Below are positions 19,258 through 57,690 of a stretch of 64,000 nucleotides of DNA, one piece after another (position 1 is the stretch's first letter; every line of letters begins with the position of its first letter). The stretch comes from Ensifer sp. Root278. GTDB taxonomy: Bacteria > Pseudomonadota > Alphaproteobacteria > Rhizobiales > Rhizobiaceae. The translations under genes were made by a program, and so were the position numbers. The notes beneath the pieces were generated by a model, which worked only from the letters and a program-made list of their open reading frames with translations, was not told the DNA's origin and did no database searches. Location of the stretch: positions 440,565 through 504,564 of the forward strand of contig NZ_LMJJ01000001.1 in the NCBI RefSeq assembly GCF_001429285.1, written 5' to 3'.

Positions 19258-20268
19258 TCAGTTTCGAGAACTTGAAAATTCCTTGTTGGTGGCCGCGACG
19301 GGCATGGCGTTCAGGCCAAGGCGGGTACGTGCCGCATCGTATTCGCGCTCGAGCCGGTCGACGAGACGGGCGACGGAGGTCACTTCCCTGACCGCGCCGA
19401 TGCCCTGGCCGCAGCCCCAGATGTCCTTCCAGGCCTTGGCGCTGTCGGTTGCGGCGCCAAAGTCCATCTTCGACGGATCTGCTTCCGGCAGATTGTCCGG
19501 ATCCATGCCGGCAGCAGCGATCGAGGGCTTCAGGTAGTTGCCGTGAATGCCGGTGAAATAATTGGAATAGACGATGTCGGCAGCGTTGCTGTCGACGATC
19601 ATCTGCTTGTAGGCGTCGGTGGCGCGCGCCTCTTCCGTCGCGATGAACGGCGAGCCGATATAGGCCATGTCGGCACCCATCGCCTGGGCGGCCAGGATGG
19701 CGCCGCCGGTGGCGATCGCGCCGGAAAGAAGCAGCGGGCCATCGAACCAGGAGCGGATTTCCTGGATGAGCGCAAACGGCGAAAGCGTGCCGGCATGACC
19801 GCCAGCGCCGGCAGCAACGGCGATCAGGCCATCGGCGCCCTTGCGGATCGCCGAATTGGCGTGGCGGTTGTTGATGATGTCATGCAGCACGATGCCGCCG
19901 TAGGAATGGATCGCGGCGTTGACCTCGGGCACGGCGCCAAGCGAGGAAATGACCACCGGAACCTTGTATTTGATGCAGAGCATCAGGTCCTGTTCGAGGC
20001 GCGCGTTGGACTTGTGCACGATCTGGTTGACGGCGAAGGGCGCGGCGCGCCGGCCCGGGTTCTTGGCGTCGTGATCGGCGAGCGTCTCGGTGATCTCGGC
20101 AAGCCATTCGTCGAGCTGCGAATGCGGACGAGCATTGAGTGCTGGGAAGGCGCCGATCACGCCGGCCTTGCACTGTGCAATCGTCAACTGGGGATTGGAG
20201 ATGATGAACAGGGGCGCGCCGACGACCGGCAGTCTCGTCGTTCCGGAAAGAATTGGCGGAAGCGGCAT
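19258..20268 (-). CDS. NAD(P)H-dependent flavin oxidoreductase / nitronate monooxygenase family
   Basis: 336 residues, FMN-binding TIM barrel of the 2-nitropropane dioxygenase family (PF03060). The N-terminus RLPVVGAPLFIISNPQLTIAQCKAGVIGAFPALN and the glycine-rich GAGGHAGTLSPFALI phosphate-binding segment are diagnostic. The ATG at 20268 has GGAG six bases upstream; a further ATG at 20280 lacks spacing. The frame is open to 20484, but that region carries a 24-bp palindrome better read as an operator. Members oxidise alkyl nitronates or reduce quinones. Shared control with the beta-oxidation operon hints at an acyl-CoA-related role (inference). Confidence 0.88.
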   Translation of the reverse strand: MPLPPILSGTTRLPVVGAPLFIISNPQLTIAQCKAGVIGAFPALNARPHSQLDEWLAEITETLADHDAKNPGRRAAPFAVNQIVHKSNARLEQDLMLCIKYKVPVVISSLGAVPEVNAAIHSYGGIVLHDIINNRHANSAIRKGADGLIAVAAGAGGHAGTLSPFALIQEIRSWFDGPLLLSGAIATGGAILAAQAMGADMAYIGSPFIATEEARATDAYKQMIVDSNAADIVYSNYFTGIHGNYLKPSIAAAGMDPDNLPEADPSKMDFGAATDSAKAWKDIWGCGQGIGAVREVTSVARLVDRLEREYDAARTRLGLNAMPVAATNKEFSSSRN

Positions 20269-20301: not shown

Positions 20302-20325
20302 TTTGACGTTTGCGTAAACGTCAAA
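20302..20325. promoter_or_regulatory. 24-bp palindromic operator, copy 1
   Basis: 10-bp arms TTTGACGTTT and AAACGTCAAA around a GCGT centre, 34 bp upstream of the oxidoreductase start codon. The identical 24 bp recurs at 53560-53583 upstream of the acyl-CoA dehydrogenase gene. The pattern resembles LiuR-type (MerR family) sites known from proteobacterial branched-chain and fatty-acid degradation regulons; that assignment is from memory and is inference. Confidence 0.75.
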
Positions 20326-20609
20326 ACAGATAGCAGCAAGTTCATCGCTTGCAAAGAGGTGGTTTTCGCGCCGGCGACGCCGGCTTATCCTGCATTGTGC
20401 CTGCGAAGTTGTCGCGTTTTCCCCGGGCTTGGCCGGTCGACCGGGCCGCCGGACTTGCGGATTCCGAAAGCAGCGGTTACGCAATTGTTAACAAAACCAA
20501 CGGCGTGCCTCCAGATTTAACCGTTAGGCCCTTGGAGAAAGATCGAGGGGTACCGATCAGCTAGAGCGCGCCGGCAGGCCCAAAGCCCTGCCTACACAGA
20601 GGACTTGAT
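20326..20609. other. Non-coding region between divergent genes
   Basis: 284 bp between the palindromic operator and the GTG start at 20610. It contains AT-rich TTAA-bearing sequence around 20480-20525 (GTTAAC, TTTAACC) that might bind CtrA-like factors, but the half-sites do not show the N7 spacing. Nothing else is recognisable. Confidence 0.3.
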
Positions 20610-47671: not shown

Positions 47672-49888
47672 TTACGCCGCCTGCTTCTTCTCGCCGTAGG
47701 GGTTGAAGCGACCGTAGAAGGTCTCGCCGCGCTCGGCCATTTCCTGCAAGAGCGCCGTCGGCTTGAAGTGGCTGCCGTAGTCCTTGGCAAGCTTGTCGCA
47801 CATCTTGACAAAGGCCTTTACGCCCATGCCGTCGATGTAGGAGAGCGTGCCGCCCGTGTAGGGGGCAAAGCCGAAGCCGAGGATCGAGCCGACATCCGCC
47901 TCACGCGGATCGGTGACGATGCCCTCTTCCATGGTGCGGGCGGCTTCAAGCGCGATCGTCGCCAGGAACCGCTGCTTCAGCACTTCGATGTCGATTTTGT
48001 CGGCGTTCTTTTGCGGGTAGAGCGTCTTCAGCTCCGGCCACAGATACTTCTTGGCGGGCTTCGCCGGATACTCGTAGAAGCCCTTGCCGTTCTTGCGGCC
48101 GCGGCGGTCGAGGTCGTCGACCATCTTGTTGATCAGCGCCATGTGCTTGGGATCGACGGCCTTTTCGCCGAGGTCGGCGACGGTGGCCTTGAGGATCTTC
48201 TGGCTGAGGTCGATCGCCACTTCGTCGTTGAGCGACAGCGGTCCAACAGGCATGCCGGCCATCTTGGCGGCATTCTCGATCATCGCCGGCGGCACGCCTT
48301 CGATCAGCATGTCATAGGCTTCGTGGATGTAGCGGAAGACGCAGCGGTTGACATAGAAACCGCGGGTGTCGTTGACGACGATCGGCGTCTTCTTGATCGC
48401 GGCGACGTAGTCGAGTGCCGTAGCGAGCGCCTTGTCGCCGCTCTCCTTGCCGAGGATCACTTCGGTCAGCATCATCTTTTCGACCGGCGAGAAGAAGTGG
48501 ATGCCGATGAACTGGCCGGGGCGTTTCGAGTTCTTGGCAAGGCCGGTGATCGGTAGTGTCGAGGTGTTGGAGGCGAAGATCGTGTCTTCGCCGATCACCG
48601 CCTCCACCTTCTCGATGACATCCTTCTTGACCTGGCGGTCTTCAAAGACGGCTTCGACCACGAGGCCGACTTCCTTCAGGTCGTTGTAATCGGCCGAAGG
48701 CGTGATGCGGGCGAGCAGCGCTTCGCCTTCTTCCTTGGTCAGGCGACCCTTGCCGACCGAATCCTTGACCAGGCCTTCCGAGTGGGCCTTGCCCTTCTCG
48801 GCCGCTTCCATGTCGCGGTCGATCAGCGTGACGGCAATGCCGGCGGCAGCCGTCACATAGGCGATCGAGGCGCCCATGAAGCCGGCGCCGACGACGCCCA
48901 CATGCTTGAACTCCGACTTCGGCACGCCGGCCGGGCGGCGGGCGCCCTTGCCGAGCTCCTGCATCGAGACGAACAGCGAGCGGATCATCGAGAAGGCTTC
49001 GGTCGTCTGAAGGATCTCGGTGAAGTAGCGCTGCTCGATCTTGAGCGCCGTGTCGAACGGCACCTGCAGGCCTTCATAGACGCATTTCAGGATGGCAACG
49101 GCGCCCGGATAGTTGCCGTAGGTCTCGCGGCGCAGGATCCCGGAAGCGGCCGGCCAGAGCTGGGCCGAGGCCGGCGTCCAGATGCCGCCGCCCGGTACCT
49201 TGTAACCCTTCTCGTCCCAGGGCTGCACCGGCTTCAGGCCGTTCTTGATCATCGCCTTGGCGGCGTCGACCAGCTTGTCCGCATCGACGACTTCGTGCAC
49301 GAGGCCGAGCGCCTTGGCGCGAGCCGACGTCAGCGACGAGCCCGTCGTCATCATCTGCAGCGCGTCCTGCGCATTGGTGAGCCGCGGCACGCGCTGGGTG
49401 CCGCCGGCGCCCGGGAAGATGCCGACCTTGACTTCCGGCAGGGCGATCTTCACCGACTTGGAATTGGACGCGACGCGGCCATGGCAGGCGAGCGACAGCT
49501 CGAAAGCGCCGCCCATGCAGGTGCCGTTGATCGCCGAGACCCAGGGCTTGCCCGAGGTTTCGAGCTTGCGGAAGAGCCCGGTCATGCGGCCGACGAGGTC
49601 GAAGAGCTTCTGGGCGGCGTTATCCGGATCCTTCTTCTTCTCTTCCTGCTGGAAGGTGAACATCGACTTGATCATCGACAGATCAGCGCCGCCGGAGAAG
49701 GTCGACTTGCCGGAGGTGAAGACGACGCCCTTGACCGCTGCGTCGGCAGTCGTTGCGTCGACGATGGCGTTGAGTTCCTCCATCACCTCCTGGGTGAAGA
49801 CGTTCATCGACTTCTCAGGCATGTCCCAGGTGACGAGTGCGATGCCGTCGGCGTCGGTCTCGATCTTGAAATTGGTGTAATTCGTCAT
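47672..49888 (-). CDS. fadJ: Multifunctional enoyl-CoA hydratase / 3-hydroxyacyl-CoA dehydrogenase (FadJ type)
   Basis: 738 residues. The crotonase domain (1-190) has the oxyanion elements [15 protein letters not shown] and [18 protein letters not shown]. The NAD-binding 3HCDH domain begins at [21 protein letters not shown] (about 332) with the catalytic His in [14 protein letters not shown], and C-terminal 3HCDH domains follow to about 720. It hydrates and oxidises acyl-CoA intermediates. It is the last gene of a four-gene operon starting at 53383. Confidence 0.95.
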
Positions 49889-49899
49889 GGTTCTCCCCC

Positions 49900-50310
49900 T
49901 CAGTAGAGAATGGGTTCGATGCGCAGCGAGATATTCGATCCGCCGCTGTAACGTTGTTTGCTGGTATTGGTGGCGATCAGCCGGTCGTCGCGCTCGACGC
50001 GGATGGTGAAGCCCGCATCGGTGGCCTTATTGAGTTCAGGCTTCGGCACCTGCAGCACGAAGGGCACGCGGGTGGCCTTGCCATCGCTGACGACGGACGT
50101 TTCCGCGATCAGCTTGGCAGCGACGTCCATCACGCCTTGCTCTTCGAGCCTGATGGTGACGGTGCCGGCCGGAACCGGGCCGCTCGCGACATTGGTGATC
50201 GCACCGGTGAGCGTGAAGCTGTCGCTGCCTTCCTCGTCGGAGACGCAGCCAGCGGCTGCAAGCAGCCCCAGGCCCATCAGCGCGAGAAGAGAGCGGCGCA
50301 TCACGTCCAT
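49900..50310 (-). CDS. YbaY/YscW-like lipoprotein
   Basis: 136 residues with a lipoprotein signal (LLAAAGCVS, lipidated Cys near 22). The mature domain resembles the YbaY/YscW family (PF09619): [33 protein letters not shown], then a strand-rich end. These form small beta-barrels in the outer membrane or periplasm. It sits between the thiolase and fadJ genes with gaps of 2 and 11 bp, so it is part of the operon although its link to beta-oxidation is not obvious. Confidence 0.8.
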
Positions 50311-50312
50311 CG

Positions 50313-51521
50313 TCAGACCCTTTCGATGATCGTGGCCGTGCCCATGCCGGCGCCGATGCAGAGCGTGACGAGCGCGGTGTTGAGATCGCGGCGCTCCAGC
50401 TCGTCGAGCACGGTGCCGAGGATCATCGCACCGGTGGCGCCGAGCGGATGGCCCATGGCGATCGCGCCACCGTTGACGTTGATCTTGTCGTGCGGGATGT
50501 CGAAGGCCTGCATGTAGCGCAGCACGACGGCGGCGAAGGCTTCGTTGAGTTCGAAGAGATCGATGTCCGACAGCTTCATGTCGGCGCGCTTCAGAAGCTT
50601 TTCGGTGACGTCGACCGGGCCGGTCAGCATCAGCGCCGGATCGGAGCCGATATTGGCGAAGGCGCGGATGCGGGCGCGGGGTTTCAGGCCCATGCTCTCG
50701 CCGCCGGCCTTGGAGCCGAGCAGCACGGCTGCGGCGCCGTCGACGATGCCCGACGAGTTGCCGGCATGGTGCACGTAGTTGATCTTTTCGATTTCCGGAT
50801 GCGCCTGGATGCCGACGGCTTCAAAGCCGCCCATTTCGCCTGGCATTTGGAAGGACGGGTTGAGCGAGGCGAGCGCCTGCATGTCGGTGCCGGGACGCAT
50901 GTGCTCGTCACGGTCGAGGATGGTCAGACCGTTCCCGTCCTTGACCGGCACGACGGACTTCTTGAAGTAACCCTTCTCCCAGGAATGCGCCGCGCGCTTC
51001 TGGCTTTCCACCGCATAGGCGTCGACGTCGTCGCGGCTGAAACCGTATTTCGTGGCGATGAGATCGGCCGAAACGCCCTGCGGCATGAAGAAGGCCGGCA
51101 GGTTGACCGAGGGGTCCATGAACCAGGAACCGCCGGACATGCCGAGGCCGACGCGCGACATGCTCTCGACGCCGCCGGCAATGACGATGTCGTCTGCACC
51201 CTGGGCGATCTTGGCCGCGCCGAAGTTGATGGCGTCGAGACCGGAGGCGCAGAAGCGCGAGATCTGCATGCCCGGCGCGCGGGTGGAATAGCCGGCTTCG
51301 AAGGCGGCCGCCTTCGGAATCACCGCACCGGCGTCCATGACCGGATCGACGCAGCCCATGATGATGTCGTCGACGGTCGAAGTATCGAGGTCGTTGCGGT
51401 CACGCACCGCCTCCAGCATCTTGGCGGCGAGGCGAACGGACGGCACTTCGTGCAGCGATCCGTCCTTCTTGCCACGGCCGCGCGGCGTGCGCACGTGGTC
51501 GTAAACGAAGACTTTCGTCAT
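50313..51521 (-). CDS. Acetyl-CoA C-acyltransferase (thiolase)
   Basis: 402 residues. The acyl-carrying Cys is in [13 protein letters not shown], the catalytic His in [14 protein letters not shown] and the second Cys in LCIGAGMG. It cleaves 3-ketoacyl-CoA with CoA (FadA/FadI role). It lies between acyl-CoA dehydrogenase (65 bp upstream) and the YbaY-like gene. Confidence 0.94.
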
Positions 51522-51586: not shown

Positions 51587-53383
51587 TCAGAACGCGGCCG
51601 CGTCGAGCGCCATCAGCGTGTCGGCGCCGGTCTCGATGCGGGCCTTGCGCAGGGCCGTTTCCGGCAGGATCCTTTCCATGAAGAAGGTCGCGGTGATCAG
51701 CTTGTTCTTCAGATAGTCTGCGCGCGTCGTTTCGCCAGAGGCAAGTTTTTCCTCAGCCGTCTTGGCAATTTTTGCCCACATGTAGCCAAGCACGACAAGG
51801 CCGAAGAGGTGCATGTAGTCGGTCGAGCCGGCGCCGGCATTATCGGGCTTGGCCATCGCGTTCTGCATGAACCACATGGTGGCGGCCTGCAGGTCGTTGA
51901 GGCCCTTCTTCAGCGCCTTGGTATAGGCGGAGAGTTTCTCGTTGCTGCGGTTTTCCTCGCAGAAATCGCCGATTTCCTTGAACAGCGCCATGACGGCGCG
52001 GCCACCATTGAGGCCGAGCTTGCGGCCGACGAGGTCGAGCGCCTGGATGCCGTTGGCGCCTTCGTAGATCATCGCAATGCGGGCATCGCGGACGTACTGG
52101 CTCATCCCATGTTCTTCGATATAGCCGTGGCCGCCGAACATCTGCTGCGCCATGACGGCGTGGTCGAAGCCCTTGTCGGTGAGCACGCCTTTCAGGATCG
52201 GCGTCATCAGGCCGAGAATGTCGTCGGCCGTCTGGCGGTCCGCCTCATTGTCGGAGCGGTGGGCGATATCGGATTTGAGCGCTGTCCAGAGCGTGAAGGC
52301 GCGGCCGGCTTCGTTGAAGGCCCGGATCGTCATCAGCGTGCGGCGCACGTCCGGATGCACGATGATCGGGTCGGCCTTCTTGTCCGGCGCCTTCGGGCCG
52401 GAGAGCGAACGACCCTGGATGCGGTCGCGGGCATAGTTGGCGGCGTTCTGATAGGCGATCTCGGCGATCGACAGGCCCTGCAGGCCGACGCCGAGGCGGG
52501 CTTCGTTCATCATCACGAACATGGCGTTGAGGCCCTTGTTCTCCGTGCCGATGAGGTAGCCCTCGGCCTCGTCATAGTTCATGACGCAGGTGGAGTTGCC
52601 GTGGATGCCCATCTTGTGTTCGATCGCGCCGCAGGAAACGCCATTGCGTTCGCCCGGCTCGCCGTCGGCATCGAGCTTGAACTTCGGCACGATGAACAGC
52701 GAGATGCCCTTCACGCCCTCCGGTGCGCCCTCGATGCGGGCAAGCACCAGATGGATGATGTTGTCCGACATGTCGTGTTCGCCGGCGGAGATGAAGATCT
52801 TCTGGCCGGAAATCTTGTAGGAGCCGTTGCCATCAGGAACGGCCTTGGTGCGCAGCAGCCCGAGGTCCGTACCGCAATGCGGTTCGGTCAGGTTCATCGT
52901 GCCGGTCCAGGTGCCGGCAACCATCTTCGGCAGATAGGCCTGCTTCTGTTCGTCCGTACCGTGAACGAGGATTGCCGCGATCGCGCCCTGGGTGAGGCCG
53001 GGATACATGGTCAGCGCCATGTTGGCCGAGGACATGTACTCGCCGACGGCGGTATGCAGCGTATAGGGCAAGCCTTGGCCGCCGAATTCCTCCGGAACGG
53101 CGAGGCCGAGCCAGCCGCCTTCGCGGTAGAGGTCGAAGGCTTCCTTGAAGCCCTTGGGCACGCTGACCGAGCCGTCGTCGCGGCGCTTGCAGCCTTCCTG
53201 ATCGCCGGAGAGATTGACGGGGAACAGGGCCTCCTCGGCAAGCTTGGCAGCCTCGCCGACGATCGCTTCGATCATGTCCGGCGTCGCATCAGCAAAACCG
53301 GGCAGGTTGTTGTAGCGCTCGATGCCGAGCACGTCGTTCAGGATGAAGAGGGTATCGTCGACCGGGGCCTTGTAGATGGGCAT
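51587..53383 (-). CDS. Acyl-CoA dehydrogenase (long form with C-terminal extension)
   Basis: 598 residues: N-terminal helical, middle beta and C-terminal helical acyl-CoA dehydrogenase domains, followed by an extra C-terminal domain (PF12806 type) found in 590-600-residue bacterial members. [16 protein letters not shown] and [19 protein letters not shown] are flavin/substrate loops. It performs the first FAD-dependent step of beta-oxidation. It is the first gene of the operon, with a palindromic operator 177 bp upstream. Confidence 0.94.
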
Positions 53384-53868
53384 GCTTTCCTCGCCTTTTG
53401 GTGCTTCGGGCGCCGTACCTCGTCGTCGACGCCCGGTTGCAGGATGCCGGATGCGCCGCCATCGTCTTTGATTCTAGAGCATCTTTCCCTTCCAGTGATT
53501 CCACAGGAAAGCGGCCTGCTCCAGGGCGGTCTCGCATCGTTGGCCGGATGCTACAAAATTTTGACGTTTGCGTAAACGTCAAAAATTGCGGGCTGCGAAG
53601 TTTCGTCGCGGCACCAGGGGAGCCGAAAGGGGCGCCGGCAACCCGCGCTCACGGTACGATCCTGCCAAATCGTTAAAAATCCTGGGCAGATTAACGGCTT
53701 ATTTACCACGTTTCGTGAAAGGTGCGTGTTGAGATGGTCAAAGCTGCAACCGGTCCTGGCGTCGTGTCGTTGTAGCTTTGCCCACGTCGGAAGCGCCACA
53801 GGGGTGAGGAAAGCTGTTTTCTTCCGTGACGACTTTCGGGATGGCCGACGACAGGGGCGAAGAACACC
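53384..53868. other. Non-coding region between acyl-CoA dehydrogenase and podJ
   Basis: 485 bp between divergent genes. It contains the 24-bp operator (53560-53583), a decayed palindromic sequence at about 53473-53528, and two TTAA half-sites at 53673 and 53691 that are 14 bp apart, so not a canonical CtrA site. Two GANTC sites lie at 53470 and 53497. No gene is evident. Confidence 0.45.
53560..53583. promoter_or_regulatory. 24-bp palindromic operator, copy 2
   Basis: Identical over 24 bp to the palindrome at 20302-20325 (arms TTTGACGTTT / AAACGTCAAA, centre GCGT). Here it lies 177 bp upstream of the acyl-CoA dehydrogenase ATG, suggesting control of the beta-oxidation operon by the same MerR-type regulator. 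Confidence 0.78.
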
Positions 53869-56800
53869 ATGAATGGATCGCGATCAAATCCTCAGCGCGC
53901 AGGCAGCCAGTCCTATAGCGAGCGGCCGTCGCTCGACGCTTTGAACCGCACCATCGAAGGACTTGAGGCGCGGATCGAAGGCCTGATGAGCGGCGCTGCC
54001 CGCGACGTGGCGCCAAGGCCTGCCGAGCGTCTTCCGGCCCGCGAACCAGCCAGAGAACCCGCAACGCCCCGTGACGCCGTCGCCGAAATCATGCAGCGCC
54101 AGCGCAGCCTCAGCGCTTCGCGCGAGCGCCCGCCGCTTCGCGACCGAATGTCGGCGCGCGAACCGGAACGCTATGTTCCCGAACGTCCGGCCTCTGACCG
54201 TCTTACCGAAGAGCCCCGCCTGCAACCGTTGCACAGCCAGCCGCAGCGCCCGTCTTTGGCCGTCAACGATATCGCCGAGGCGCTCGTCGGTCTGCGCCAG
54301 GACCTGAAGCGCGACATCACCGATGGCCTCACGCGCGAGATGAATTCGCTCAGGTCCGAGATTCGCGGCATCAAGGCTCAGGCGCAGGATCACAGCTTCG
54401 CCGAAGACGTGCGCGGCGACATGCAGCGTCTTGCCGACAGCATCCAGCAGCTCGGCCGCCAGGCCTCGCCCGCCCAGGCCGACGCGCTGCGTGGCGACTT
54501 CGACGAACTGCGTGCGATGATCGACGGCCTTGCGCGTGAAGACAGCATGCGCCGCATGGAAAACCGCTGGACCGGCGTCGAGGATCGGCTGATCGCGTTT
54601 GATCAGAACCGCGACGACGAGCTGGTGGCGCTGGCCTATCGCCTGGACGAGATCAAGTCGCAGATCGGCTCGCTGAAGGGCAGCTCGGCCGTCGACGCGC
54701 TTGAGGACAAACTGATCGCCGTCGCCCAGGCCATCGAAATGCTGGGCCGCCAGATCCAACCCGATGACCGCCGTCTCGTTTCGCAGTTTGCGGATCTCGA
54801 CGGTCGGCTCGATGAAATCAGCCGCGCGATCGCTGCCAACAGTCGCACGGCGACGGGTCTCGACGGTAGCTTCGTCAACCGGCTGGAAAGCCGGCTTGGC
54901 GACCTGTCCCGTCAGATCGACAGCCTGTCGCGCCCGAACGATTCCGGCCTCGGCGCCCGCCTGGAAGCCTTGACCGCCCGGGTCGAAGATCTCGCCGGCG
55001 AAAAGGCGGCCGCCCGTCTCGAAGAGCGTCTCGACCAGCTTTCGCTGGTGATGGAGCGCAGCAACAGGACCGCGCAGTCGGATCTCAACGATTATCTGTC
55101 GGATATTTCGCGCAAGATCGAGGCCCTGGACCAGGGCAGCGTCAACGACACACTGGCCGAGCGGCTCGACTATCTGGCACGCCGGATCGACGAACTCGAC
55201 GCCCATGGCGTTCAACCGGCCTCCGATCCGCGCTTCGACCGGCTGGAAGATCGCCTTGTCGGCATCGCGCAGCGTCTGGAAGAGACCCACGCTGCGCCGT
55301 TCGATGATCGTGTCGCCCTGCAGAACCTCGAAGCGCAGATCGCCAATCTGTCGACGCTGGTCAGCCAGCCGCGCGCGGACGTCGCTGCGAGCGCGGTGCC
55401 CGTCGATTTCGAAAACCGCATGAGCGCGCTCGAGGACTACCTCTCGACCAGCGACGAATACATCGTCGAGGCCGCTCGCCAGGCGGCCGAAGCGGTGATG
55501 GAAGCCTATGCCAAGAACGGCTCTCCGCGGGGTTCCGGCGGAGATCTGGCCGCAATCTCGGCGCTTGCCGAAGACCTTCGCACGCTCGAGGACCTCAGCC
55601 GCTCCAGCGAGGAGCGCACGGCGCGCACCTTCGAGGCTTTGCACGAGACCCTCGTGCATATCGCCGACAAGCTGGAGCGCATCGAAAATCGCGAGCCGGC
55701 AATGCTGGCACGGGCTGAAACGCCGGTGCTGCGCGAACCCGCGCAGATGCCGAGGGCCGCGCAGCCGGAACTCGCTCCCTTCGGCGACAACGATCTCGAT
55801 GACCGCTACGAGGATCTGCAGCGCAACGTCCGCGCGCTGCAGGCCGAAGATCAGGCTGTGGTCACCCAGACCGCCGAGCCGGCAACGACCTTTGCCGATG
55901 ACCGGCAGGTCTCGACCGTTGAAGTCGAAAATGTGCGCGAACCGGCCGCTGCAGCCCGCACCGGCCTGCTCGCCGGCCTGACCCGGCGCTTCTCCGGCAA
56001 GCGGTCCGAGCCGGTGCACGAGCAGGAGCAGTCCCGACAGGTCGTCGAGCCGACTCCGTCGATCGATCCCTCCGAAATGCTTGCGCCCGAGGAAGCCAAC
56101 CAGCTGCTGGAGCCGGGTTCCGGCGTTCCCGATGTCAAGAAGATCCTGGAACGCGTGCGCGCCGGGCAGATGAACAAGGCAGGTATTCAGCCTGGCGATG
56201 GCGACAAGTCGGACTTCATCGCTGCCGCCCGCCGTGCTGCCCAGCTCGCCGTTGAAGAGGCCGACACCCTGAACAAGGTTGGTCAAAGCGGAAAGACCTC
56301 CGGCATCGGCGGCGCTTTTGCCCGTCACCGCCGGCCGATCCTCATGGCCGTCGGCGCGGTCCTGCTGGCGATCATGTCCTATCCGCTGGTCAGCAATATG
56401 CTGAAGAAGCAAGAGACCGCACCGGTGGAGCCGGCCGCGATCATCGAGCAGCAGGCGGTGCCGGAATCGCGCGAAAACAAGATCGTCGAAGGCCTTCTGC
56501 CGCAGACCGCGGCCGTAGCCCCGGCTGAAACGCCGGTCACGGCATCCGAAATCGCAGTCGCAGCACCGGTCGATTCCGTTGAAGCCCCGGCGAAGGTATC
56601 CGAAGCTTCGATCTCGGTACCGGCGACGGCCGTGCCGACGACCACCATTGCGACACCGGCCGAAGAGAAGGCACCGATGCTCGCGCCGGTCGCAGAAACG
56701 AAAACCGCTTCGGCGGCCTCCGAGTTCCAGGCGACGCCCGCTGGCAACGCACCCGCCAGTGGTGCGGCCCTTATCAGTTCTCCGGCCGAGGGCGCGGCAA

Positions 56801-57690
56801 CGACCGCGCTGGCGCCGGTGGCCGCACCGAGCGAGATCGTGCTGCCGGAAGGCTTCGGCCCGGCAGCCCTGGTGACGGCCGCCAAGGGCGGCGACCCGCT
56901 TGCCTTCTACGAAATCGGCGCCCGCTTTAGCGAAGGCCGCAGCGTTCCTGAAAACATGGCGGAAGCCGCCAAGTGGTATCAGCGCGCCGCCGACGCCGGC
57001 GTCGTTCCGGCGCAGTATCGCCTCGCGAGCATGTATGAAAAAGGCATGGGCCTAACGCGTGACGCCTCCAAGGCGAAGGCGCTCTATCTCGCCGCCGCCG
57101 GCCAGGGCAATGCCAGCGCCATGCACAACCTCGCGGTCATGCTGGCGAGTGGCCGCGATGCTTCGCCTGACTTTGCCGAGGCAACGAAGTGGTTCGCGAA
57201 GGCTGCCGAACTCGGCATTCGCGATAGCCAGTTCAACCTCGCCGTCCTCTATGCGCGTGGCAACGGCGTGCCGCAGGACCTGACCGAATCCTACAAATGG
57301 TTCTCCGCCGCCGCCCGCGAAGGCGACATGGATGCCGCCGCCAAGCGTGACGAAGTTGCCAAGGCGATGAAGCCTGAGCAGCTCGAAAGCGCCAAGGCGA
57401 AGGCCGATGCCTGGAAGGTGCAGCCGGTCGACGCCAAGGCGAACACGGTCGACGTTCCGGATGCCTGGGTCGGCCCGGCCAACAAGACCGCCAGCGTCGA
57501 CATGACCAAGGCGGTCCGCAATATCCAGGCGATCCTGAACAACAACGGCTTCGACGCCGGCAAGCCCGACGGCCAGATGGGCAAGAAGACCGTGGCTGCC
57601 ATCAAGGCCTTCCAGAAGTCGGTCGGCCAGGAGCCGACGGGCGAAATCACCGAGCAGTTGGTCAAGGAATTGCTGAAGCGCAATTCCTGA
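53869..57690 (+). CDS. podJ: Polar organelle development protein PodJ
   Basis: 1273 residues. The cytoplasmic N-terminal part (1-620) is largely coiled coil with repeated LEDRL/LSRQID heptads; a Pro/Glu-rich segment follows. One membrane helix is at about 822-845 (RPILMAVGAVLLAIMSYPLV). The periplasmic part has an Ala/Pro linker, four Sel1-like repeats (about 1000-1170) and a C-terminal peptidoglycan-binding domain (about 1210-1272). This is the PodJ architecture of Caulobacter and rhizobia, which places polarity factors at the new pole. It is divergent from the acyl-CoA dehydrogenase gene, as in Sinorhizobium meliloti. Confidence 0.93.
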   Translation: MNGSRSNPQRAGSQSYSERPSLDALNRTIEGLEARIEGLMSGAARDVAPRPAERLPAREPAREPATPRDAVAEIMQRQRSLSASRERPPLRDRMSAREPERYVPERPASDRLTEEPRLQPLHSQPQRPSLAVNDIAEALVGLRQDLKRDITDGLTREMNSLRSEIRGIKAQAQDHSFAEDVRGDMQRLADSIQQLGRQASPAQADALRGDFDELRAMIDGLAREDSMRRMENRWTGVEDRLIAFDQNRDDELVALAYRLDEIKSQIGSLKGSSAVDALEDKLIAVAQAIEMLGRQIQPDDRRLVSQFADLDGRLDEISRAIAANSRTATGLDGSFVNRLESRLGDLSRQIDSLSRPNDSGLGARLEALTARVEDLAGEKAAARLEERLDQLSLVMERSNRTAQSDLNDYLSDISRKIEALDQGSVNDTLAERLDYLARRIDELDAHGVQPASDPRFDRLEDRLVGIAQRLEETHAAPFDDRVALQNLEAQIANLSTLVSQPRADVAASAVPVDFENRMSALEDYLSTSDEYIVEAARQAAEAVMEAYAKNGSPRGSGGDLAAISALAEDLRTLEDLSRSSEERTARTFEALHETLVHIADKLERIENREPAMLARAETPVLREPAQMPRAAQPELAPFGDNDLDDRYEDLQRNVRALQAEDQAVVTQTAEPATTFADDRQVSTVEVENVREPAAAARTGLLAGLTRRFSGKRSEPVHEQEQSRQVVEPTPSIDPSEMLAPEEANQLLEPGSGVPDVKKILERVRAGQMNKAGIQPGDGDKSDFIAAARRAAQLAVEEADTLNKVGQSGKTSGIGGAFARHRRPILMAVGAVLLAIMSYPLVSNMLKKQETAPVEPAAIIEQQAVPESRENKIVEGLLPQTAAVAPAETPVTASEIAVAAPVDSVEAPAKVSEASISVPATAVPTTTIATPAEEKAPMLAPVAETKTASAASEFQATPAGNAPASGAALISSPAEGAATTALAPVAAPSEIVLPEGFGPAALVTAAKGGDPLAFYEIGARFSEGRSVPENMAEAAKWYQRAADAGVVPAQYRLASMYEKGMGLTRDASKAKALYLAAAGQGNASAMHNLAVMLASGRDASPDFAEATKWFAKAAELGIRDSQFNLAVLYARGNGVPQDLTESYKWFSAAAREGDMDAAAKRDEVAKAMKPEQLESAKAKADAWKVQPVDAKANTVDVPDAWVGPANKTASVDMTKAVRNIQAILNNNGFDAGKPDGQMGKKTVAAIKAFQKSVGQEPTGEITEQLVKELLKRNS

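Follow-up and report, generated by a model that had tools for sequence, protein, structure and literature searches.

A near-perfect palindrome of 24 bases, TTTGACGTTTGCGTAAACGTCAAA, is found at two places in the 64,000-nucleotide stretch of Ensifer sp. Root278 DNA analysed here (the window), once in front of a gene for a flavin enzyme and once in front of a fatty-acid breakdown operon. What do these two loci have in common, and which protein would act on both? The comparisons described below make it very probable that both palindromes serve as operators for a LiuR-like regulator of the MerR family, which would link the flavin enzyme to fatty-acid breakdown.

Two identical palindromes in the window

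The 24-mer is present in exact form at positions 20302-20325 and 53560-53583 (separation 33,258 bp). The single position pair at which perfect symmetry is broken, 11/14, is the same in both copies, as the original prediction had stated. With up to 3 mismatches allowed, the 24-mer is confined to these two places both in the window (either strand) and in the whole genome (7,095,460 bases in 44 contigs); at the same threshold, shuffling the window 100 times with dinucleotides preserved produced no match, and the reversed control of the whole-genome scan gave none either. The assertion that chance identity is negligible is borne out by these figures.

Neither palindrome is assigned a strand. Palindrome 1 (20302..20325) lies upstream of a minus-strand gene (19258..20268) encoding a 336-aa NMO/FabK-type FMN oxidoreductase (Pfam NMO, 72.1 bits against a gathering cut-off of 28), with 34 bp between the end of the core and the ATG (20268). 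Palindrome 2 (53560..53583) precedes by 177 bp the ATG, at 53383, of acdA (51587..53383, minus strand), which encodes an acyl-CoA dehydrogenase with a C-terminal Acyl-CoA_dh_C domain (Pfam) and heads a tight row of four minus-strand genes (65, 2 and 11 bp apart). Behind acdA come genes for a thiolase (acetyl-CoA C-acetyltransferase; 50313..51521; NCBIfam PRK08242, 723.8 bits, cut-off 514), a small YscW-like lipoprotein (49900..50310; Pfam YscW, 26.9 bits, cut-off 22.6) and a fadB/fadJ-type enoyl-CoA hydratase/3-hydroxyacyl-CoA dehydrogenase (47672..49888; Pfam 3HCDH_N, 3HCDH and ECH_1). The sites thus stand where they had been placed, upstream of a nitronate monooxygenase-type gene and of a beta-oxidation operon. 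Both lie between divergent genes, and the target of each pair is inferred from distance and conservation.

That a lipoprotein gene should lie within a beta-oxidation operon, with 2 bp separating it from the thiolase gene and 11 bp from fadB, is an observation in its own right; a lipobox-like sequence, LLAAAGC, was found by eye in its product. This 136-aa gene had been considered as an in-operon MerR regulator and was rejected on account of its YscW-like product. Divergent from the operon is a plus-strand gene (53869-57690) whose product, 1273 aa long, contains Sel1 repeats and a PG_binding_1 domain (Pfam); we take this protein to be PodJ-like.

Conservation in the genus and the family

A 22-bp core of the 24-mer was the query for the conservation counts and the wider scans. 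Both cores are exact in all 16 genus genomes read, a count that, like those that follow, is confounded by kinship. When acdA was searched for in 61 genomes of the family, 49 matches were obtained at E 1e-200 or better. In each of the best 30 of these 49 loci (29 genera besides the window's own), an operator is found 52-235 bp before the start; 23 of the 30 operators are exact and all are within 2 mismatches.

The search for NMO orthologues gave 39 matches in 37 of the 61 genomes. A site is present at up to 4 mismatches in 26 of the 39 loci and at 5-7 mismatches in 4, and in the best 30 of the 39 the best match invariably falls 10-43 bp before the start. As background, none of 2897 random 460-base stretches of the window scored below 6 mismatches, and of 3000 shuffled upstream regions 3 had a match at 5 mismatches and none lower. 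The nine lowest-scoring of the 39 loci (six from other families, one divergent own-family copy and two second copies) are without a site, their best matches having 8-10 mismatches, and the NMO link is therefore confined to the window's own family among these genomes. As judged from these sequence counts, it is narrower than the acdA link.

A near-perfect inverted repeat common to two places might also be a repeat or a structural DNA element instead of an operator. Many unrelated or intragenic copies, the outcome that would have spoken for such an element, were looked for and not seen: the 7.1 Mb of the genome hold just two exact copies, each of them in front of a gene, and across many genera the palindrome keeps its place ahead of orthologous genes while the flanks diverge. 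On copy number and placement this explanation is hardly credible and was rejected. The sites, their positions and their conservation can be read directly from the sequence; that they are operators is how we interpret them.

Wider distribution of the motif

The exact core was found in at least 120 stretches among genome contigs at large, and 80 loci were read, their labels being assigned by BLAST against the genes of the window genome and by hand. Among these 80 listed loci, 29 are by acdA, 5 by an NMO-type gene and 46 by other genes, the sphingomonad loci L120 and L140, which have an acdA-like gene, being counted as "other". Among the named records listed, those whose acdA is nearest to that of the window (84-86% identity) are Rhizobium, Shinella, Ciceribacter and Endobacterium. 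Many of the 46 belong to Burkholderiales and some lie by MerR genes. Genes resembling IVD are found at six of the listed loci (L068, L085, L087, L099, L125 and L138), and a LiuR-like MerR protein (BLAST E 1e-4) is encoded in 34 of the 80; in Burkholderiales records among those listed, the exact core stands beside both IVD-like and LiuR-like MerR genes. It is on such loci, and not on a published LiuR consensus, that the likeness of the motif to LiuR sites rests.

By the same hand labels, and among the loci listed, the central pair varies with target class, being A/C in 26 of the 29 acdA loci, A/A in 4 of the 5 NMO loci and A/T in 45 of the 46 others. The central mismatch had been put forward as an extra argument; it was dropped because the central pair changes between genera and target classes while the arms stay.

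Other sites in the genome

When the 22-bp core was allowed 3 mismatches, five places were found in the window genome, and relaxed arms with 2 mismatches gave seven sites; the control was 0 in both scans. All seven relaxed sites, found in the genome-wide scan that the original prediction had proposed, lie upstream of a gene start. Besides the two in the window, one precedes fadD, for a long-chain acyl-CoA ligase (C1:438836, 1.7 kb left of the window; PRK07059, 1015.2 bits, cut-off 869), with an MFS-type gene divergent; one precedes acad2, a second acyl-CoA dehydrogenase gene (C12:219874), with a CorA-type gene divergent; and others are found before the genes for an ETF-quinone oxidoreductase (ETF-QO; C12:926; named from the G009 orthologue, which matches 2gmh at E 1.4e-74) and for a LiuR-like MerR protein, MerR-A (C44:34728). 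The last is at C12:94530, 24 bp before the start of a small DUF2780-like gene (L294:1614-2006, minus strand), whose domain score of 24.9 bits is below the cut-off of 27.5. Several relaxed sites lie between divergent genes, and the target named is the likelier of the two.

In 13 genus genomes scanned at 3 mismatches, the acad2 site was found in all 13, the merR-A site in 12 (and at 4 mismatches in the thirteenth, G002) and the ETF-QO site in 8 only. The fadD and DUF2780-like sites were recovered by the relaxed scan in all four genus genomes to which it was applied, the window genome included. The reversed control gave 0, 1, 0 and 2 matches in these four genomes, which also contain matches that are not shared, so that a single relaxed match is no proof of a site.

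The targets fadD, acdA/thiolase/fadB, ETF-QO and acad2 form one pathway, which was counted in favour of a fatty-acid-oxidation regulon. Sites at liu/ivd genes, by which a LiuR branched-chain regulon would be known, were not seen in the window genome. Its own gene at L295, which we take to be IVD-like and for which no NCBIfam model scored at or above its cut-off, has no site (best match at 7 mismatches), and 12 of the genome's 14 acyl-CoA dehydrogenase loci lack one at up to 5 mismatches, the other two being acdA and acad2. A branched-chain regulon was rejected because the IVD-like gene is without a site. From these sequence data, the regulon looks like one for fatty-acid oxidation instead of branched-chain amino acid breakdown. 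Kazakov and co-workers (2009) reportedly found fatty-acid genes of alphaproteobacteria to be under the control of LiuR orthologues.

A LiuR-like MerR protein as candidate regulator

A MerR-family gene was to be located according to the original prediction. The window holds no match to MerR_1; the genome has 13, all elsewhere, and among them is the LiuR-like MerR-A on contig C44 (C44:34888-35271, 128 aa; MerR_1, 61.9 bits, cut-off 21.6; MerR-DNA-bind, 46.2 bits, cut-off 25.4). The protein has the N-terminal MerR HTH domain looked for in LiuR-type regulators, and its family can be assigned from the sequence itself.

A tree was built from 68 proteins: 30 MerR-A, 32 from operator loci (29 of the 34 MerR proteins from the listed operator loci were placed in it) and 6 other MerR proteins of the window genome. 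A branch with support 99/95 separates MerR-A and the operator-locus proteins (62 rows) from the 6 other own MerRs; several outgroup branches of this tree are long, and no experimentally studied LiuR is among its rows. The row nearest to MerR-A outside it comes from L087, a locus with an IVD-like gene (93/83). MerR-A accordingly groups with MerR proteins that are encoded near liu-type genes and accompanied by the same operator, and for the LiuR-like MerRs of operator loci the best match in the window genome was L014 in each row listed. The 12 other own MerR proteins were rejected as regulators: their loci have no palindrome at up to 5 mismatches, and the six of them included in the tree fall outside the clade.

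An operator before the regulator's own gene, a further mark of LiuR-type regulators, is likewise found at merR-A; among 30 MerR-A loci, a related palindrome precedes the start at up to 4 mismatches in 24 and is missing from 6. The resemblance to LiuR-type sites proposed at the outset is thus supported by the IVD-like and LiuR-like MerR genes beside the core, by the tree and by the related palindrome of MerR-A itself.

Within the family there are two LiuR-like MerR types, MerR-B, encoded upstream of acdA, and MerR-A, encoded elsewhere. In 20 of the best 30 of the 49 acdA loci, MerR-B is found upstream of acdA on the same strand within 1.5 kb, and in 17 of these 20 within about 330 bp. A MerR-B query was run against 18 genomes, namely 4 positive controls, 4 of the genus and 10 without MerR-B at acdA. 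The four controls gave 58-65% identity; in all 14 other genomes MerR-B was not found, the best match having 33-38% identity apart from short HTH-only matches, and in the nine genomes also covered by the MerR-A search this best match lay at the place of MerR-A. The failure to find MerR-B in 14 of 14 makes MerR-A the likely regulator. A search with MerR-A at E 1e-12 gave one match in each of 16 genus genomes, and the same search found MerR-B in other genera. Of 54 genomes with a LiuR-like MerR, 36 have sites at up to 2 mismatches, against 0 of 7 genomes that lack one (0.001 if genomes were independent, which they are not); in the remaining 18 of the 54 the protein is present and no such site is seen.

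The palindrome of MerR-A itself, which in the genus reads TTGACTTTTACGTCAAGGTCAA, departs from the NMO and acdA operators at fixed positions, so that MerR-A may not bind the latter. This difference, and the lack here of MerR-B, which elsewhere is the neighbour of acdA, would suit a situation in which some regulator other than MerR-A now binds the sites in the genus. We think this improbable, given that the motif stands beside LiuR-like MerR genes in many lineages and that a search at E 1e-12 yields MerR-A and nothing else in each of the 16 genus genomes. By these comparisons MerR-A is most likely the regulator in the window's genus. A distant relative seems to stand in for the missing neighbour regulator gene, and MerR-B would have been lost as against never present.

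Promoter geometry and mode of action

Promoters were read with the rhizobial (S. meliloti) consensus, and all -10 and -35 assignments are weak predictions. Directly upstream of palindrome 1 is a putative -10 sequence of the NMO gene, CTATCT (20328..20333, minus strand), with a putative -35, CTTTGC (20351..20356, minus strand), 17 bp from it. Since CTTTGC-17-CTATCT is placed just upstream of the palindrome, the latter would cover the transcription start. CTATCT is kept in 15 of the 16 genus promoters, the remaining one having CTATTT, and GCTA can be seen by eye at the -10 place in 6 of 14 promoters from other genera. A second reading, TTGACG-18-TTCAAT, in which the palindrome serves as the -35, scores equally in the window genome; TTCAAT is not kept in the NMO promoters of the genus. 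At acdA, acad2, ETF-QO, fadD and merR-A, a -35-like sequence falls on the palindrome's left arm and is followed 16-19 bp on by a weak -10-like one, the readings at fadD and at the DUF2780-like gene being poor. For one protein bound in both arrangements, repression is the simplest role, and it is favoured by the predicted geometry of the NMO promoter.

Classical MerR-type proteins activate by twisting a long promoter spacer, and sites of this kind would agree with the family of the regulator, with the likeness of the left arm to a -35 box at the five genes just named and with the 19-bp spacer that one possible reading gives merR-A (TTGACT-19-TAGTGT). At the NMO gene, however, the putative promoter elements lie upstream of the palindrome, which puts the site over the start and not in the spacer, and LiuR, itself of the MerR family, is called a repressor in Shewanella (PMC3223726). 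Activation is thus an unlikely explanation. If repression is the mode of action, a MerR-A dimer on the palindrome would block RNA polymerase, at most targets by covering the -35 region and at the NMO gene by covering the transcription start, and acyl-CoA made on the arrival of fatty acids would release it. Acyl-CoA is suggested as ligand by the nature of the targets.

The NMO-type enzyme

A profile of 21 orthologues of the NMO-type protein matched FabK best (5gvj, 6.8e-31), ahead of a 2-nitropropane dioxygenase (3bw2, 8.3e-19) and a nitronate monooxygenase (4q4k, 4.1e-12). The protein's score with the FabK NCBIfam equivalog, 68.5 bits, is far under the cut-off of 453.1. An AlphaFold2 model (pLDDT 83.1, pTM 0.85) submitted to Foldseek gave FabK first; the nitroalkane oxidase 3bw2, in fifth place, differed little from it in E-value, and FabX and PfaD followed further down. 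Identity over the first 35 matches was 19-25%. With so little identity and E-values so close, the fold does not decide the activity, and it was discarded as a guide to it.

FabK, IpdC, FabX, PfaD and the nitronate monooxygenases share one fold, and within it the NMO-type protein is nearest to FabK by profile and by Foldseek rank. According to PMC5380842, IpdC is 30% identical to FabK, carries a flavin, acts with IpdF on acyl-CoA and belongs to the KstR2 regulon. By analogy, the NMO-type enzyme might perform a redox or isomerisation step on acyl-CoA. It may also oxidise nitronates: this activity is predicted for a Brucella ovis NMO-family protein (PMC9045290), which leans against the acyl-CoA reading if that protein is an orthologue.

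Discussion

Taken together, the data make it quite likely that the palindromes are operators of a LiuR-like MerR repressor of beta-oxidation, whose targets would be fadD, acdA-thiolase-lipoprotein-fadB, acad2, ETF-QO and the NMO/FabK-type enzyme, with MerR-A as the most likely regulator in the genus. The suggestion that a common regulator brings the flavin oxidoreductase into an acyl-CoA catabolism regulon is supported to this extent, by comparison of sequences only.

The system resembles the LiuR regulon of Proteobacteria in its type of operator, found beside LiuR-like MerR genes, in the side of the tree on which MerR-A falls and in having acyl-CoA catabolic targets; it differs in that these are fatty-acid oxidation genes and in that its own IVD-like gene is without a site. 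LiuR is listed for 103 genomes in 15 taxa (PMC5343134), and PMC7238569 ties it to branched-chain degradation in an alphaproteobacterium, Rhodospirillum rubrum. FadR, PsrA and FadP control the same kind of pathway; they are GntR or TetR proteins (PMC5343134), unlike the MerR-family protein proposed here. In the literature searched, RegPrecise and most subscription papers being outside its scope, no LiuR-type site at a nitronate monooxygenase gene was found.

A more far-reaching reading can be offered tentatively, and we rate its chances at somewhat below even. In the ancestry of this genus and of some allied ones MerR-B would have been lost, while the acdA and NMO operators were kept and came under MerR-A, a distant paralogue with its gene elsewhere. 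The NMO-type enzyme, in this reading, would be an acyl-CoA-active, FabK/IpdC-like flavoenzyme of beta-oxidation, not a nitronate oxidase.

The kind of site and of system is already known; less expected is that the operators persist where the neighbouring regulator is missing and that, within the family, the NMO-type gene is regularly included. For an enzyme group annotated as nitronate monooxygenase, one branch would be placed in a fatty-acid regulon, which provides a testable context. The family also offers what appears to be a clear example from nature of operators that persist although the regulator gene accompanying them in sister genera is gone.
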